Shown here one piece after another: positions 3,001-16,659 of a stretch of DNA of 20,015 nucleotides. The stretch's first letter is position 1, and every line of letters begins with the position of its first letter. Made by a program: the position numbers and the translations under genes. Source of the DNA: a virus; the IMG/VR virus record IMGVR_UViG_3300017776_000281, positions 1-20,015 of that record. The stretch is one strand, 5' to 3'. The notes under the pieces were generated by a model. It worked only from the letters and a program-made list of their open reading frames with translations, was not told the origin of the DNA and ran no database searches.

Positions 3001-3359
3001 CTCTTTTGAAAATGCTACAAGGTAAATCTTTAGACATGAAAGAACTTAATTTGTTAAAAGGTATTTTTGGAAAAACTTATGGTTTAATTGGCTCATCTGT
3101 ACAAGATGAAATAGATTCACAAGAAGAAAACAAAAATGCAGCTCCTTTTGGCTTTGAAGCAATTGATATACCTAAGGCTGATCAAAAAGCTCAATTAAAT
3201 CCATTAAATATTCCCTCCGTTTCACCTGCCTCAAGTTTGTCGGGAATCAATGTAGCGGGTGCAATGACATCGTCTACAACACCTAACACCTTAGAAAAAG
3301 GTAAAGCATTATTTGGAGCAAATGATCCTATATTTGGTGGAATAGGTTCCGTAGCCTAA
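3..3359 (+). CDS. Large virion/internal protein, 5' end outside the window
   Basis: Open from the first base of the window in this frame with no stop and no ribosome binding site before the first ATG (position 69), so the gene starts upstream; at least 1118 codons are present. The visible part is mostly hydrophilic, Asn/Gln/Lys-rich and predicted helical, with a Gly/Ala/Ile-rich hydrophobic stretch about 95-130 residues after the ATG at 69 (GIIGGALGLTINTLSPFIGA). The C-terminus is Pro/Ser-rich (NPLNIPSVSPASSLSG) and ends in ANDPIFGGIGSVA; I recall similar tails on large structural proteins of marine phages. Size and composition fit an internal core or DNA-ejection protein, or another large virion component. 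I see no catalytic motif such as a lysozyme or transglycosylase site. The call as a virion protein is inference; that it is a real, 5'-truncated gene is clear. Its stop overlaps the stop of a gene on the other strand. Confidence 0.7.
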   Translation, partial: KILNFIDPSFTADTFAERVADNMGAFTIDALPISGGLTKVTNANKLKVSDPETLKGIYANGKNNLKILHNSIIDIYDLAKKEGRLGRVVADDILATMGFSAGMDVGKKLSEEATTDEPGIIGGALGLTINTLSPFIGAAGFQKAGSFLYDIPIATFNATKNFYNKWAEMNAANPDNSPANNLVKLYKDSKTEKKAKQIAEEINGQINPDEVAAREESLNLENRINQVVVQTIKKDADGNEYIAQEIKNLSEVDGPSLDFSLAQGTENPQLIETQRTIESNLIDGGFKITTPGRSNQKNEVAQNVKDLSLSNYKVVDDALQREFPDAQFVYTTVENADGKIQIVATEQKIGNFNSYFNTNNRVGGVVDQQIDDELASQTNILTPGATIKTTDADVSIVGGDIRNKYLNEKERVGNIYDQQLIKLVDDSFGDRSFDITNLKDTIITKVKPELGTNPNQIPTQFYDIRDLGNDFAPIINNANRAITNAYEDYLTSPTTANYKTYMEKIKSVEKNLENQINNLNSRLQKQFEAGEVTVAPTYNLGEVSFTYPKTIQFDNAGNVIAGVDDIGKTYMGRDLKAGEPIGIGVPGSKVDVNIEQPTLEIPIKQLIKLKENLQNDLNKAIIKPNENSQLIQRLSTMIKQIDGVVDDNLQGIQVYDDWLKQKRTNYTDIFEKGQINKILTQTGTGEFAIPDELVGKAFLQNPKSIEEFFSTFGGDAEAVKGIEAAFFDMLFNVKGGILNKDGLIDMTKLKNFKSNNADMIEALDGFIPIADQLDSQLKLGVNAANRLKILNDRKKFADFIELDAYVKNNEFKTGLTYKNTEQMINQVLKDPEQMKDVVNVLNKAEDKTLLGAFKNQLFDKFLESAKGYKLDQPIVKGGTPKVGGMTKFLTKNEDSIKAYFDATGDSKGYQRLLDITEAYRKLNLTGYPAKLPNAVPDKVQQIFGTGIPQILSRVFAVQSGRTSSRFVSAELGMRFMEKLNTTQREKIIAAALYDKDNATALLKMLQGKSLDMKELNLLKGIFGKTYGLIGSSVQDEIDSQEENKNAAPFGFEAIDIPKADQKAQLNPLNIPSVSPASSLSGINVAGAMTSSTTPNTLEKGKALFGANDPIFGGIGSVA

Positions 3360-3618: not shown

Positions 3619-5076
3619 TTAAACGATCCATTCTTTCAGTTCTTCACCTAAGACTTCACTAGAAATATTAATTTTTTTACGAAGTGATTTAATAATTTTC
3701 TCATCTACTGTTTTAGGTGTAAGAAGATCAATATAGGTAACTTTCTTTGTCTGCCCAATACGATGAACTCTTTCCTCTGACTGCATTCGTATTTCTAAAT
3801 CATAGGAATTAGAAAAATAAACAACTGTATGAGCAATGGTTAGAGTTAGTCCATATCCCGCAGTGCGAGGATTGGCTATAATATATTTTAATTCGCTACT
3901 CGGATCTTGAAACTCGGTCACAATATCTTGTCTTTCTTGATCTTTTGTATCTCCAAAGAAAGCTTTAATGGCATTAAAACCATACTTCTCCCTTATTGTT
4001 TTGAGTATCTTTTTTATATCATGACGATAATTAGCCCAGATGACCACCTTTTGATCACCCGTTTCATCTAATACATCTAACAAAGCTTGATATCTATTAT
4101 TATCAATAGGGGTAGCTTCTCTATTTTCATTTAAGATAAACCCACAAACAATCTGATGTAACTTAGTAATTTGAGATAAGACAGTAGTAACATTAATTAT
4201 ATCACCACCAATGATAGCCATTGCTTCACGCTTCATTTCATCATAGGCTTTTTCTTGTTCTCTCGTTAAATCTACAATACGAGGGGTGTAGACTTTGTCA
4301 GGTAAATCAAGACAATCTTTTTTTAAGACACGACTAGAGAAGGTTTCTAATTTATTATTTAACTCATCTAAATTTTTATAATCAACAATTTCTTGAAAGC
4401 TGTGAGAAGATGTATGTCGTTGCATTAGGACTGCATATCTTGCCCGAAAAGCATAATAACTTTCATAACCAAGTAATCCTGAATTTAAAAAATAACATTG
4501 ACTGTATAAGTCTAAGGGTGATTTTGTTACAGGAAGTCCTGATAAAATTCTTCTTTGCTTTGCTAATTTTCTTAAAGATAAAATATTTTTTGTTTGTAAG
4601 GCTTGAGGATTTTTAATTACTGTTGATTCATCAATTGCAAAAGAACATTCATTTGCTTCTAAAACTTTTTTGGTAAAATCAAGACCTTTTCTACTTCTAA
4701 ATGCTTCAATATTAATTACAAAAAACTTAAGTATATCATTATCAACAAACAATTTCCTTAGTTCTTTTTTATTTTTTGCAGTGTTTGCAGGTGACCAAGT
4801 TATGATATCTTTATCAATGTGGTCAGGTACGTGCTTCAAAAGTTCAAGTTGTGACCAATTTCGATATACACCTTTCGGTGCAACAATTACGGCACAATTA
4901 ATTCTTTTCTCTTCATAGGAAATACAGATATCATCGATGCACACTTTAGATTTTCCTGTCCCCATCTCCATAAAAAATGCATAGGCATCTTTTTGATATG
5001 CTTGATTTATGGCTTCTTTTTGATGGTCGTAGGGCAGAGTTTTAAACTTATACTCTTTTTCACTTGATAATTTCAT
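3619..5076 (-). CDS. SNF2-type SF2 helicase/translocase
   Basis: A 485-residue DNA-dependent ATPase of helicase superfamily 2. Walker A is MGTGKS (residues 38-43) after the Q-motif-like YDHQKEAI (16-23). Walker B is the DEST box (149-152), motif III reads LSGLP (178-182; usually SGTP), and the second RecA fold ends in a clear SNF2-type motif VI, EERVHRIGQ (434-442), preceded by the motif V region AGYGLTL. Such proteins translocate on duplex DNA, remodelling forks or stripping proteins; phage members of this short form often sit with replication genes. It lies on the minus strand directly opposite the replication operon, with only 40 bases between the two start codons. There is no nuclease or zinc domain added. 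The ATG at 5076 has only a weak GGGAT upstream and may start a leaderless mRNA. Confidence 0.93.
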   Translation of the reverse strand: MKLSSEKEYKFKTLPYDHQKEAINQAYQKDAYAFFMEMGTGKSKVCIDDICISYEEKRINCAVIVAPKGVYRNWSQLELLKHVPDHIDKDIITWSPANTAKNKKELRKLFVDNDILKFFVINIEAFRSRKGLDFTKKVLEANECSFAIDESTVIKNPQALQTKNILSLRKLAKQRRILSGLPVTKSPLDLYSQCYFLNSGLLGYESYYAFRARYAVLMQRHTSSHSFQEIVDYKNLDELNNKLETFSSRVLKKDCLDLPDKVYTPRIVDLTREQEKAYDEMKREAMAIIGGDIINVTTVLSQITKLHQIVCGFILNENREATPIDNNRYQALLDVLDETGDQKVVIWANYRHDIKKILKTIREKYGFNAIKAFFGDTKDQERQDIVTEFQDPSSELKYIIANPRTAGYGLTLTIAHTVVYFSNSYDLEIRMQSEERVHRIGQTKKVTYIDLLTPKTVDEKIIKSLRKKINISSEVLGEELKEWIV

Positions 5077-5116: not shown

Positions 5117-5671
5117 ATGGAAGATAATATTCTTGAACAATTGGAAAATGATTTGCAGGACTTTGATACAAGTAAAGCAGATCTTAACAGTTTATCGGAA
5201 GCTTGTCGTAGCCTAATTCAATGGCAACGAGTAGAGGAAGCTAAAGAACAAGAACTGAAAGACGTTAAAGATAAAATAAAAAAGTTGTCAGAAGAAATAA
5301 TACCAGAGGCAATGCTTACTTTAAATTTAGACCAATTAAAATTAGATAATGGACTAAAATTATCTATTGTTGATAATGTCTATGCACACATATCAGAGGC
5401 TAATAAACCTGTTTGTTTTAATTGGCTGAGAGATAACAATCTTGGATCAATTATTAAAAACGAAATTGGGGTGCAGTTTGACAAAACACAAGACGCTGAG
5501 GCAGTGGATCTTAAAACACGATTATCTAATGAGGGTTTACCTGTCACGCATAAAGAATCTATTCATCCGAGCACTTTAAAAAGCACGATGAAAGAATTGG
5601 TCAAAAAAGGTGTAAGTGTTCCTGACACTTTTAATATTCACATAGGCAAAAAAACTAGAATACAAAAATAA
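5117..5671 (+). CDS. Coiled-coil protein heading the replication operon (184 aa)
   Basis: First gene of the replication operon, with a strong ribosome binding site (AAAGGAG, 8 bases upstream). Residues about 30-65 are highly charged and predicted to form a coiled coil (QRVEEAKEQELKDVKDKIKK); the rest is a mixed domain ending in a basic tail (HIGKKTRIQK). There is no catalytic motif, membrane segment or cysteine cluster. Proteins of this general form are found in phages next to single-strand-binding protein genes, and the position suggests a structural or loading partner in replication or recombination. That role is guessed from position only; I do not recognise the family with certainty. Confidence 0.8.
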   Translation: MEDNILEQLENDLQDFDTSKADLNSLSEACRSLIQWQRVEEAKEQELKDVKDKIKKLSEEIIPEAMLTLNLDQLKLDNGLKLSIVDNVYAHISEANKPVCFNWLRDNNLGSIIKNEIGVQFDKTQDAEAVDLKTRLSNEGLPVTHKESIHPSTLKSTMKELVKKGVSVPDTFNIHIGKKTRIQK

Positions 5672-13327: not shown

Positions 13328-13461
13328 TGGCAGGTCCTGGTCTTTATGCAAATATTCATGCGAAAAGAAAACGTGGAGAAAAGATGCGTAAAAAAGGCAC
13401 TAAAGGTGCTCCTACCGCTAAAGCTTTTGCACGAGCAAAGCAAACAGTAAGGAAAAAATAA
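13327..13461 (+). CDS. Conserved basic phage microprotein (44 aa)
   Basis: Reads MAGPGLYANIHAKRKRGEK... through KGTKGAPTAKAFARAK to ...TVRKK, with TAATG overlaps on both sides. The 'GLYaNIHaKRkR...GeKMRK.G.KGAPTakaF..A' pattern is one I remember well from many marine and T7-like phages, where it is a very short protein of unknown role, so I am fairly sure this is real although shorter than usual gene-calling limits. Strongly basic, no hydrophobic core; probably binds nucleic acid or a virion protein. Confidence 0.75.
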   Translation: MAGPGLYANIHAKRKRGEKMRKKGTKGAPTAKAFARAKQTVRKK

Positions 13462-13835
13462 TGGCTGAAGAAAAGAAAAAAACAGGTTTAACCGAGAAAA
13501 TCGGATTATTTATTGATAAAACTTTAACGTTTGGTGGTGGTTTACAATTTAAACAAAGCGATATTGATAATGCCGTCAATGCCATTGATGGTGAAACTGA
13601 ATATTCCATTGATAGTTGGAAAGATATTAAAACACAAAGTGATTTTGATAAGTTCAAATCCATTCTCAATTCTATGAAAAAAGACTCTGATTCAGGCGAC
13701 ACGCCTCCTACCTCAGGAAAAACCGGTGGTATGGTGATTAAAAGTAGAAAAGGGAATAAGATTTCCCCTAGAAAACCGAAGGTAGCGGGAAGAAGAGCTA
13801 CAAGAGGATACGGTAAAGCCTTCAAGGGTAGATAA
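13461..13835 (+). CDS. Unknown protein with basic C-terminal tail (124 aa)
   Basis: TAATG overlap with the previous microprotein. The N-terminal 75 residues look folded and mixed in charge (KIGLFIDKTLTFGGGLQF, then a helical part). A Ser/Asp/Thr/Pro linker follows (SDSGDTPPTSGKTGG), and the last 30 residues are very basic (PRKPKVAGRRATRGYGKAFK). The tail 'RRATRGYGKAFKG' resembles endings of small marine-phage proteins. A nucleic-acid- or capsid-binding tail is plausible; no function is known to me. Confidence 0.75.
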   Translation: MAEEKKKTGLTEKIGLFIDKTLTFGGGLQFKQSDIDNAVNAIDGETEYSIDSWKDIKTQSDFDKFKSILNSMKKDSDSGDTPPTSGKTGGMVIKSRKGNKISPRKPKVAGRRATRGYGKAFKGR

Positions 13836-14404: not shown

Positions 14405-14476
14405 ATGACTGAAATTATTGACTTTTGCCCTTTATGTGGTTTAGATATAGAAGAAGATTGTGAGTGTGATGGCTAA
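14405..14476 (+). CDS. Four-Cys micropeptide (23 aa) upstream of terminase
   Basis: ATG with AGGAAA about 9 bases upstream. Reads MTEIIDFCPLCGLDIEEDC plus ECDG, giving CPLCG and CEC, a complete four-Cys metal site in 23 residues. It overlaps the terminase small subunit start by 8 bases, so it may act by its translation (coupling) as much as by its product. Tiny, so real coding is likely but not proven. Confidence 0.5.
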   Translation: MTEIIDFCPLCGLDIEEDCECDG

Positions 14477-14975
14477 AAATCATGGTGATATAATTGAGAA
14501 AGATGGATTGACCAGAAGGCAAAGGTCTTTTGTTCAAATGTTAGTAAAAGAAAATGGTAGAGCAACTCCAACGGAGTGTGCAAAACTCGCTGGATATTCT
14601 GAACATTCAGCTACTCAAATAGCTTGTAATTTACAAAATCCTAAAATGTTTCCTCGTGTTGTAGAATACATTGACGAACTCACAAAAGATTATGCTCAAG
14701 CGGCAAGAATAGATTTTATGAAACATGCAAGAGAAATGGCAAGATTAAGAGATTTAGCTATTGAGAAAGATCAGTTTAGTGCAGCGATCAATGCTGAATA
14801 CAGAAGAGGTTTACTGGGTGGTTTTTATGTTGATAGGAAAGAAGTAGTCACTGCTAGTCTTGATAATATGTCCAGAAAAGAATTAAAAGAAAAATTAGAA
14901 AAATATAAAGAGGAAAATCAATTGATTCAAGACGCTGAGTGGAAAGAGATTGATAATAAGATTGACGAAGAATAA
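14469..14975 (+). CDS. terS: Terminase small subunit
   Basis: 168 residues from the ATG at 14469 (a GTG at 14460 is possible but adds only MSV). The N-terminal domain reads LTRRQRSFVQMLVKENGR, then ATPTECAKLAGYSEHSATQI, a helix-turn-helix (about residues 33-55) typical of phage small terminase subunits of the Terminase_2 type, followed by the usual helical oligomerisation region and a charged C-terminal coiled coil (KELKEKLEKYKEENQ) that would contact the large subunit. It recognises the packaging site and starts genome packaging. It is preceded by the AT-rich gap and followed by an HNH endonuclease, but no large terminase gene follows within the window. Initiation is probably coupled to the four-Cys peptide, since no strong ribosome binding site is seen. 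Confidence 0.82.
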   Translation: MAKNHGDIIEKDGLTRRQRSFVQMLVKENGRATPTECAKLAGYSEHSATQIACNLQNPKMFPRVVEYIDELTKDYAQAARIDFMKHAREMARLRDLAIEKDQFSAAINAEYRRGLLGGFYVDRKEVVTASLDNMSRKELKEKLEKYKEENQLIQDAEWKEIDNKIDEE

Positions 14976-14978
14976 TTT

Positions 14979-15000
14979 ATATCCTATACAATTAGGATAT
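14979..15000 (+). promoter_or_regulatory. Hairpin over the HNH endonuclease start codon
   Basis: ATATCCTA (14979-14986) and TAGGATAT (14993-15000) form a perfect 8-base-pair stem with a 6-base loop TACAAT. The 3' arm contains the only ribosome-binding-like bases (AGGA) and the first two bases of the ATG at 14999. Folding would hide the start of the HNH gene. Confidence 0.6.
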
Positions 15001-15709
15001 GGAGATTATATCTAGAAAAGAAGCTAAGCAAAAAAATTTAAAAAGATATTTCACAGGCAAACCTTGTTTAAGAAATCATATTGCTGAGAGATTAGTTTCT
15101 ACCAAATCCTGTATTGAGTGTAATAAAATTCATGAGAAAAAATATTATTCAACTCCTTATGGAAAAAGTAAACGAGCAGAAAAAGATAAAAGATATAAAA
15201 TTAACAATATTGAAAAAATCCGAGAGAGAGATCGAAAGAGAAGTAAAACGCTTCAGTACAAAACAAGAGCAAAAGAATACAACCAAAGAGATTATGTAAA
15301 AGAAAAAAGAAGAGCCTATAATAAAAAATATAGAGAAGAAAATTTAGAAGTATTAAAAGAAAGAGATAGGTTATATGCAAAAAATGTTAAAAGAAAAAAT
15401 CCACAAAATCGTATAAAAGAAAATATAAGAAGAAGAATTTTATTAGCTTTAAAGAATAATTCTAAATCACTTCCTTTAGAGAAACTTATTGGATGTGAAA
15501 TTAGTTTTTTAATTCAGTACCTGGAGAATAAATTTATAAAAGGGATGTCATGGAATAATCACGGTGAATGGCATATTGATCATATAAAACCCTGTACAAG
15601 TTTTGATTTGTCTAAATTATCTGAACAGAAAAAATGTTTTCATTATAAAAACCTACAACCTTTATGGGCAAAAGATAACCTATCTAAAGGTGCTAAAATA
15701 AATAATTAA
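14999..15709 (+). CDS. HNH endonuclease (236 aa)
   Basis: C-terminal HNH (beta-beta-alpha-metal) site: WHIDHIKP (191-198) with D194/H195, followed by the NLQPLW.KDN block (N218 to N227) and a KGAK end, typical of phage HNH proteins. The N-terminus has a putative zinc site C23-x3-H27 ... C38-x2-C41 in the 'R.yFtGkPC...HiaeR' arrangement often seen in free-standing phage HNH homing endonucleases. The centre (60-150) is a long, very Lys/Arg/Glu-rich helix. It sits next to terS: HNH proteins there either help terminase cut at cos sites or are homing insertions. The rare large basic linker and separate hairpin-controlled start favour homing; both remain possible. The start has poor ribosome-binding context. 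Confidence 0.85.
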   Translation: MEIISRKEAKQKNLKRYFTGKPCLRNHIAERLVSTKSCIECNKIHEKKYYSTPYGKSKRAEKDKRYKINNIEKIRERDRKRSKTLQYKTRAKEYNQRDYVKEKRRAYNKKYREENLEVLKERDRLYAKNVKRKNPQNRIKENIRRRILLALKNNSKSLPLEKLIGCEISFLIQYLENKFIKGMSWNNHGEWHIDHIKPCTSFDLSKLSEQKKCFHYKNLQPLWAKDNLSKGAKINN

Positions 15710-15717
15710 TTTTATAT

Positions 15718-15746
15718 TTGACAATCCTATAAACTTAGAATAATAA
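15718..15746 (+). promoter_or_regulatory. Sigma70-type promoter for the structured leader and small-gene unit
   Basis: Perfect -35 TTGACA (15718-15723), 17-base spacer, then TAATAA (15741-15746); AATAAT at 15739-15744 is a better hexamer with a 15-base spacer. Predicted transcription start is near 15752, exactly where the structured RNA begins. It lies just after the HNH stop. Confidence 0.6.
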
Positions 15747-15752
15747 TTTAAT

Positions 15753-15920
15753 TATGGAGTTAGAAAGGAGAGAACACGATACTTTCATAATAGGCAGATT
15801 ATCAAATGTTAATTTCTCCTCGTACTTAACTACTAGCAAGTTTGCTTATGTGAAAAACTTTTTACTCCATACCCTGTGCTAGGCTTGTTCCCCTTTCGTG
15901 ATCATTGACAGGTCTAGCAC
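15753..15920 (+). ncRNA. Structured leader RNA, possible riboregulator
   Basis: Two helical domains can be drawn by hand. Domain 1 is closed by TATGGAGT (15753-15760) with ACTCCATA (15864-15871), 8 perfect pairs, and holds a nested stem AGGAGAGA (15766-15773) with TTTCTCCT (15813-15820). Domain 2 is a 13-pair hairpin, GTGCTAGGCTTGT (15876-15888) with ACAGGTCTAGCAC (15908-15920), with two G-U pairs and a 19-base loop. It starts at the predicted promoter start and ends 10 bases before a GGAG ribosome binding site. The stretch has no credible gene. It may be a cis-acting 5' leader of the operon at 15940 or an independent small RNA. I do not recognise it as a known riboswitch class. Confidence 0.55.
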
Positions 15921-15939
15921 TATTTAAAAAGGAGATAAT

Positions 15940-16134
15940 ATGAAAACTTACAAAGCCGTAGCCGAGTGGACTACTACTCACGAACTAATAATTGAAGCCA
16001 ACAATATTGATGAAGCCTTAGAGAAGGGTGCATCAGAACAAGTTGTTATGGAAAAAAGAATACGTTCAGCAGGATATGTTGTAAAAAAAATAGAAGAGAT
16101 TGCAGATATTGATAGTGAGAAAATCAATGACTGA
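15940..16134 (+). CDS. Small beta-strand protein, paralogue of the gene at 16299 (64 aa)
   Basis: Strong ribosome binding site (AAAAAGGAG). Sequence MKTYKAVAEWTTTHELIIEA then NNIDEALEKGASEQ fits the small 'strand, strand, EA..-DEA, helix' pattern seen in short phage and plasmid proteins of the DpnD/PcfM sort. The pattern recurs in the gene at 16299, so the two look like diverged copies. First gene behind the structured leader; its end overlaps the next start by 8 bases. No enzymatic motif. Function unknown. Confidence 0.72.
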   Translation: MKTYKAVAEWTTTHELIIEANNIDEALEKGASEQVVMEKRIRSAGYVVKKIEEIADIDSEKIND

Positions 16135-16312
16135 TAAACATGACATCATAATTGATGAAGATGAAATGGATGAAAAATTACAAGATTTAATTACAAACTT
16201 TTACCCTGAAGCTGAAATTGATCAATCCAATGAATTTTTTATGAAAAGATATGAGGATATAAAATTACAGTTGGTTGATTTAATAATGGATATCTGGGAT
16301 GAAAAAAAATAA
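16127..16312 (+). CDS. Small acidic protein (61 aa)
   Basis: The ATG at 16127 is used because it overlaps the previous gene by 8 bases; the upstream TTG is not credible. Strongly acidic (DEDEMDEKLQDL, EAEIDQSNEF), mostly helical, with a hydrophobic acidic end (LQLVDLIMDIWDEKK). No known motif. Small acidic phage proteins can act as DNA mimics or inhibitors of host enzymes, but there is no direct sign of that here. Confidence 0.65.
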   Translation: MTDKHDIIIDEDEMDEKLQDLITNFYPEAEIDQSNEFFMKRYEDIKLQLVDLIMDIWDEKK

Positions 16313-16511
16313 ATACAAAGTATATGTATATGAAGCTTATACAAAGACGTATGAGGTAGAAGCTAATAGCGAGATAGACGCAATTGTAGAAATAGAAACC
16401 AATGGGGAGAGATTAGATGAACAAAACATAATAGCACATGGCAAACAACAAATATTACCTAGATATCAAAAACAAGAAGAATTTAGAGTTGAGGAGGCAG
16501 TAAAAATATGA
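16299..16511 (+). CDS. Small beta-strand protein, paralogue of the gene at 15940 (70 aa)
   Basis: Overlaps the previous gene by 14 bases. MKKNKYKVYVYEAYTKTYEV then EANSEIDAIVEIETNG follows the same layout as the gene at 15940 (YK.y......yEvEAns..dAi). The C-terminal part (QILPRYQKQEEFRVEEAVKI) differs. ATGA overlap with a very short peptide gene downstream. Function unknown; resemblance to DpnD/PcfM-like proteins is from pattern only. Confidence 0.68.
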   Translation: MKKNKYKVYVYEAYTKTYEVEANSEIDAIVEIETNGERLDEQNIIAHGKQQILPRYQKQEEFRVEEAVKI

Positions 16512-16564: not shown

Positions 16565-16597
16565 TAATATAAAGATTAATTAATTCCCACTTTAACG

Positions 16598-16626
16598 AGC
16601 CCTCCTAAATACAGGAGGGCTTTTTT
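16598..16626 (+). terminator. Rho-independent terminator
   Basis: AGCCCTCCT (16598-16606), loop AAATAC, AGGAGGGCT (16613-16621), then five more T bases. A perfect 9-pair GC-rich stem plus U-tract; the clearest terminator in the window. It ends the 15718-16564 unit. Confidence 0.93.
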
Positions 16627-16629
16627 CAT

Positions 16630-16659
16630 TTGACATTTACTAAAAAATATTCCTATAAT
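16630..16659 (+). promoter_or_regulatory. Perfect-consensus sigma70 promoter
   Basis: TTGACA (16630-16635), 18-base spacer, TATAAT (16654-16659): both hexamers match consensus exactly. It begins 4 bases after the terminator and would start transcripts near 16666, ahead of GGAGAG and the ATG at 16693. Expected to be recognised by host RNA polymerase, so the following operon is probably early. Confidence 0.85.

Follow-up and report, generated by a model that had tools for sequence, protein, structure and literature searches.

A structured RNA element behind a promoter-like region of a phage contig as one case of a mosaic of exchangeable modules

Closest described systems

Phage tRNA arrays string together small structured RNAs and differ in content from phage to phage, and in type III toxin-antitoxin systems a small gene is preceded by consecutive pseudoknotted RNA units (ToxI). 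Both were considered for the element described here and rejected. No tRNA (ARAGORN) or tmRNA was found in the window, i.e. the whole 20,015-base stretch of DNA that was analysed (IMG/VR virus record IMGVR_UViG_3300017776_000281), or in 16 scanned loci, and the modules do not fold as tRNAs. As to type III systems, the units of the array differ from one another, no terminator follows it and the downstream proteins have no Pfam match.

manA (RF01745) and wcaG (RF01761) are pseudoknotted RNAs known from marine phages and metagenomes, where they lie in potential 5' UTRs (PMC2864571). Along with ornate phage RNAs and phage tRNA arrays they come closest in kind to the modules, but they are single RNAs and not reassorting arrays; no module matches them at threshold, and just one RNA neighbouring an array (contig L142, see below) resembles manA, below the cut-off. 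ROOL, GOLLD and other ornate large RNAs are elaborate RNAs of phages and prophages with unknown function (PMC12286853). ROOL and GOLLD each consist of one large conserved RNA, frequently close to tRNA islands and in the case of GOLLD often exceeding 800 nt, whereas the arrays reported here are composites of 40-120 nt modules; an assignment to these RNAs was rejected, as there is no Rfam match and neither the window nor the 16 scanned loci contain tRNAs. Finally, the 5' leader of the T4 gene 32 mRNA contains a pseudoknot (PMC3014915), i.e. one gene-specific autoregulatory site, whereas in the present case the modules change while gene and promoter stay. Regarding the criteria for riboswitches, conserved cores are present, while a given module is found ahead of various genes and a given gene behind various modules.

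In Rfam 15 no array module matches at the gathering cut-off (window, arrays and most of the relatives' loci), and permissive thresholds gave nothing convincing; the lone match above threshold, a hammerhead II in L148, lies outside the array. BLAST searches of the region and the modules against 50,697 phage records returned chance matches only, and nine scattered matches of the core pattern to unrelated bacteria among 84,980 genomes were also read as chance. Both the modules and their reassorting arrays are undescribed in the open-access full texts searched, most subscription papers being outside the scope of this search. The proposal that the locus harbours an undescribed phage RNA element is thus borne out, the element being structured, conserved and without a counterpart in Rfam. 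The element is larger than first described, being one case of a mosaic of exchangeable modules. Judged from sequence, its modules A and B appear to be RNA modules of an undescribed kind, among about two dozen such modules. What is new is the way in which the RNA modules are organised, as reassorting composites; biochemically they may still turn out to be of a known kind, e.g. a stabilising leader.

Promoter-like region and modules A and B

In short stretches the DNA polymerase of the window resembles, at 68-71%, Pelagibacter phages HTVC027P and HTVC023P. A terminase-like gene and a small operon flank the element:

14469-14975: terminase-small-subunit-like gene (Pfam PF03592 just under the cut-off)
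14999-15709: endonuclease-VII/HNH-like ORF, between terS and the RNA array
15718-15747, + strand: promoter-like region (consensus scan; register kept in 16 relatives)
15753-15871, + strand: module A, 119-nt structured RNA domain, first of the array (homologues, covariation, covariance model)
15753-15760, + strand: module A, P1 5' arm, pairs with 15864-15871; in L014/L059 one pair double-changed from G-C to A-U
15754-15882, + strand: 42-codon ORF from the predicted RNA 5' end, probably not coding
15767-15773, + strand: GGAGAGA, candidate pseudoknot partner to UUUCUCC (15813-15819)
15782-15789, + strand: module A, P2 5' arm, pairs with 15849-15856; two double changes
15792-15798, + strand: module A, P3 5' arm, pairs with 15841-15847; four double changes, paired in all haplotypes
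15808-15830, + strand: module A, P4 hairpin (15808-15812 with 15826-15830), UUUCUCC in the loop
15841-15847, + strand: module A, P3 3' arm
15849-15856, + strand: module A, P2 3' arm
15864-15871, + strand: module A, P1 3' arm
15876-15920, + strand: module B, 13-pair hairpin with a 19-nt loop (z -4.5; double changes in L009)
15930-15934, + strand: Shine-Dalgarno (SD) sequence AGGAG for the first downstream gene (from sequence)
15940-16134, + strand: first small operon ORF, 64 aa, no Pfam or PHROG match
16130-16312, + strand: second small ORF, coding-like codon usage
16299-16511, + strand: third small ORF, 70 aa, weak phrog_10718 match
16597-16628, + strand: intrinsic terminator ending the three-gene unit (16597-16622 plus T-run)

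The HNH ORF (14999-15709) is missing from L004 and most relatives. As L004 lacks it but has terminase gene, element and first small ORF, the HNH gene is an insertion outside the element. A 65-bp piece of this ORF shows 88% identity to a 735-kb uncultured phage. None of the downstream small-operon proteins matched a Pfam family; the ORFs at 15940-16134 and 16299-16511 are similar (K-x-Y-K-V..T..E-V/I-E-A-N) and may be paralogues. Right behind the terminator a perfect 12/12 promoter (TTGACA-18-TATAAT, 16630-16659) drives the next gene. A 127-bp piece between listed ORFs (13339-13465) shows 73% identity to HTVC033P DNA under gp37/gp36 and is possibly an overlooked short gene.

TTGACA is found at 15718-15723 and the -10 element is either TAGAAT (15736-15741) or AATAAT (15742-15747). 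In the consensus scan TTGACA and AATAAT, separated by a spacer of 18, give 11/12 matches and a predicted start near 15754, consistent with the earlier suggestion of a TTGACA-led promoter starting transcription at the very edge of the structured stretch. Promoter consensus matches are not commoner in this region than in shuffled sequences (12 vs 10.1), and the promoter claim therefore rests on the conserved register: TTGAC(A/T)...TATAAT/TAGAAT/TATAGG is located 12 nt (13 in L065) 5' of the module in 16 relatives, for module A as well as for its variant A'.

The 169-nt stretch has a folding energy of -45.3 kcal/mol, compared to -32.0 kcal/mol in shuffles (z -3.47; 1/200 shuffles as good). Two domains had been drawn for it, one closed by eight pairs (15753-15760 with 15864-15871) and one formed by 13 pairs (15876-15888 with 15908-15920). 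Both helices are present in the sequence, two of the 13 pairs being G-U, and the two domains correspond to modules A and B, which are separated by other modules in relatives. Module A alone reaches z -2.6 against shuffles.

Covariation in the main stems, named in the preliminary description as a test of the element, is found. Among 13 distinct haplotypes of module A seven proposed pairs are double-changed (one in P1, two in P2, four in P3). In a tree-aware null, in which each tree substitution is moved to another column sharing its parental base, the mean is 1.27 compensated pairs and seven were reached in 0/1000 cases; moreover, 96.5% of the cells pair vs 89% in the null. Module B contributes two double changes, both in L009. 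The limit of this test is that the divergent rows of module A, i.e. those with insertions, were placed in the alignment by hand, which is a lean towards the structure. If only the eight unedited gapless rows are considered, 27 column pairs are double-changed and just two of them are proposed pairs; this is not decisive, as these rows diverge too little, and it is thus the divergent haplotypes that carry the claim of covariation. When six rows, none of them divergent, were used to build a covariance model, it detected L009, L010, L014, L038 and L059 (E of about 6e-9 or lower) and placed their P3-P4 core as had been done by hand. P4 is invariant in A, and A' has another, still pairable stem; GGAGAGA and UUUCUCC are complementary in 12/13 haplotypes, with one G-U/A-U change and no double change. 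Since both hardly vary, covariation provides no test for P4 or for the GGAGAGA:UUUCUCC pairing.

Arrays in related phages

Relatives were traced via the downstream protein, two core patterns and the terminase, followed by searches with single modules, yielding homologues in about 50 IMG/VR contigs (51 besides the window, counted by contig name). In the A-clade, module A leads right after the same promoter and is followed by one to five further structured modules in variable combination: A-B in the window, A-C-B (L029), A-B-J-E (L016), A-D-B (L006), A-D-C-B (L010), A-I-I2-B-F-E (L031), A-C-B-F (L038) and A-G-H-E-C-B (L033). In a second clade (L063-L068, with 83-85% terminase identity) A' takes the place of module A and is followed by C, K, M, N or I2 (A'-C-K-M, A'-N-C-K, A'-I2-K). 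A' shares the UUUCUCC loop and an ACUAG core with A; as the six-row covariance model of A does not detect A', the kinship of A and A' is based on position and the shared UUUCUCC...ACUAG core only. Arrays without A also occur (X-Y-C-Z, X-I-C, X-C-K), and in eleven contigs module C is led by the different hairpin X or cut off by the contig end. Module E is found together with J in L150/L151, module I in L164-L167, module R in L072-L076, and module S in L164 and also nested within A' of L063/L064. Usually there is one array site per genome; arrays contain up to six modules and comprise about 470 nt, and the loop sequences of the modules are strictly conserved. The terminase relatives L071-L076 have no array at this site, keeping a short stem-loop near the 5' end, and no module was seen on inspection by eye of the gap beside terS in the cultured phage HTVC027P. 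L072, L074 and L076 have an extra first module (GCGTAG...CTACGC) by module R, which L075 (4193-4500) does not have.

Compensated changes also occur in other modules, e.g. in the hairpin of C (AGAGG/CCUCU to AGGGG/CCCCU) and in the pseudoknot of K (GGGUGGU/ACCACCC to GGGUAGU/ACUACCC), as well as in B (L009), the closing stem of I and hairpin X. Nested folding energy is strong for B, E, G, K and X, whereas A, H, I, M, R and Z reach moderate values. The modules C, D, F and S fold no better than shuffles (z -0.3 to -0.9) and are supported by recurrence and conservation; the pseudoknots proposed for C and J are invisible to the nested-energy folding program.

C, I, K, E, J, S and R recur across phages with hardly any or no other detectable nucleotide similarity. 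According to blastn, L014 and L133 have only C in common (95%, 63 nt), L066 and L137 only C-K (95.7%, 116 nt), L142 and L164 only I (98%, 49 nt) and L016 and L151 only the J-E leader region, all referring to the stretches compared, as some contigs were compared in part; L031 and L164 share I and one 37-base match. Conversely, L151 and L164 are 88% identical over 1.7 kb around the terminase and have both promoters in common as well as, without any change, one gene and its SD, with the leaders swapped: J-E in L151 vs S-T in L164, and R in L151 vs I in L164. On the strength of these alignments, the modules look as if they are exchanged as cassettes among phages, and hence resemble a hitherto unknown kit of functional viral RNA elements.

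Most arrays are 5' leaders, i.e. a promoter is followed by modules, SD and gene. In the window and most relatives there is no terminator between array and operon (in the window, no intrinsic terminator was found between 15920 and 15940), the last module is located about 10-20 nt before the SD, and the ATG is preceded by AGGAG/GGAG in the A-clade leaders listed. In L136 and L137 the array lies between operon genes, and in L133, L135 and L142 it lies behind a gene, several hundred bases from the next SD. L075 contains a stand-alone unit, in which a terminator (4118-4145) and a promoter (4162-4189) precede R and a further domain, followed by a 12-bp stem and U7 and then by the next gene's own promoter (4516-4545). 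Judged by layout alone, the window element is co-transcribed with the operon, whereas in L075 a module of the same pool forms a promoter-terminator unit of its own.

Possible roles of the modules

We tentatively favour, at somewhat less than even confidence, the reading that a phage transcript begins with this stretch, that A and B are taken from a pool of exchangeable, independently folding modules, which phages reassort as cassettes at a single transcribed position or at a few of them, and that the RNA acts in trans. The sequences show the modules, their mosaic arrangement, their presence in otherwise dissimilar phages, the RNA-type conservation of A, the constant promoter register and the one stand-alone unit; that the RNA itself is the product that matters is inferred, and no transcript, protein partner or phenotype is known. 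Most likely, the modules would be made in quantity during infection and act in trans as stable structured RNAs. Each would bind some factor of the host or the phage, such as a nuclease, the ribosome, a defence sensor or an RNA-binding protein, and they may ride on any transcript that offers a strong promoter. A trans-acting structured RNA is favoured because exchange is independent of the gene, the loops are conserved, the composites are long and a stand-alone unit exists. The lack of a terminator before the operon and the closeness of the SD count against it, as they also suit a role in cis. Further points against it are the modules that fold no better than shuffles and the covariation of A, which does not decide the matter once the divergent rows are left out. 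If the modules act as RNA and are swapped intact, phage genomes hold a modular RNA layer that is missed by gene annotation, and the module list constitutes about 20 candidate RNA families. It is conceivable, although we consider it rather unlikely, that a pool of about two dozen structured-RNA domains circulates among marine phages as RNA decoys or inhibitors directed against host ribonucleases or defence systems; such a pool would be the RNA counterpart to accessory-gene islands, with composite RNAs exchanged between lineages.

Nearly as likely as the trans-acting RNA, since nothing parts the array from the operon in the window, but likewise held with less than even confidence, is a generic leader acting in cis, i.e. 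interchangeable structured ends that block 5'-end decay or tune ribosome loading for any gene. Such a leader would fit the constant start of A and A' 12 nt (13 in L065) past the TATAAT-like box, the short distance from the last module to the SD in the window and the A-clade arrays, and the different modules between the same promoter and gene in L151 and L164. Moreover, the short stem-loop near the 5' end persists in L071-L076 without an array, and the T4 gene 32 leader pseudoknot provides a precedent (PMC3014915). However, the size of the arrays, which in a compact genome run to six modules and about 470 nt, and the strictly conserved loops count against a generic leader, as do the arrays of L133, L135 and L142, which follow genes at a distance from any SD, and the stand-alone unit of L075. 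The natural swaps, in which promoter and gene are the same and the module is different, make the choice between cis leader and trans RNA directly testable.

We regard as quite improbable an anti-SD switch, in which the UUUCUCC loop of A would pair with the inner GGAGAGA or with the downstream SD and thereby switch translation. UUUCUCC is present in both A and A', and A' lacks the inner GGAGAGA, yet its downstream SD is AAGGAGAGAU; complementarity to GGAG-type SDs is, however, trivial, 0-400 nt of other modules intervene, and the same position can be occupied by modules that lack this loop (I, J-E, S-T, R).

The preliminary description held that no gene fits the stretch. It had overlooked the 42-codon ORF starting at ATG 15754, although this ORF does not look coding. 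The frame of the first ATG is open in 18/18 distinct A/A' haplotypes (20-112 codons), with the other frames closing earlier; the ATG stays even where its P1 partner is lost, indels at the 5' end are mostly multiples of three, and R has a 72-codon ORF at its 5' end in L072-L076, which stops just before the terminator. On the other hand, GC3 exceeds GC1 in the window ORF (0.43 vs 0.29), the reverse of the phage genes (GC3 0.22, GC1 0.46), and its codon score is below that of real genes of equal size. The substitutions give no sign of purifying selection on the ORF, 7/19 changes being synonymous vs 25% expected, which is not distinguishable from neutral, and between L014 and L059 there is a 1-nt deletion besides substitutions that are for the most part nonsynonymous. 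Module C occurs in three reading frames across different phages, and R differs in frame by one base between L151 and L075 at 88% identity, which argues that the RNA and not a protein is conserved. A protein-coding gene as main explanation is thus rejected on the grounds of frames, substitutions and codon usage, and a leaderless short ORF or leader peptide from ATG 15754 is kept only as a minor rival with very little weight, in view of the constancy of its ATG. Repeats acting at the DNA level (hairpin or recombination sites, MITE-like elements) could account for the inverted-repeat ends and the cassette-like exchange, but they are hardly credible given the G-U pairs in the helices, the sense of the modules, which is that of transcription, the fixed promoter register and the compensated stems.

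Apart from the modules, some contigs contain further RNA candidates. About 220 nt downstream of the X-I-C array of L142 lies the manA-like RNA mentioned above (5362-5543, - strand; 30.2 bits, cut-off 55.2), which towards its 3' end contains a sequence resembling the T-arm of a tRNA, and a sequence akin to it follows module C in L131, L133, L135 and L149. The type II hammerhead ribozyme above the Rfam cut-off is located at 3289-3352 (- strand) of L148, which also has an X-Y-C array. In L165 (3717-3944) module I is nested in a larger structured leader (CTCTGATCCAATCA...TGGTTGGATCTGAG) directly after a terminator and ahead of an SD, and this leader probably holds further undescribed modules.
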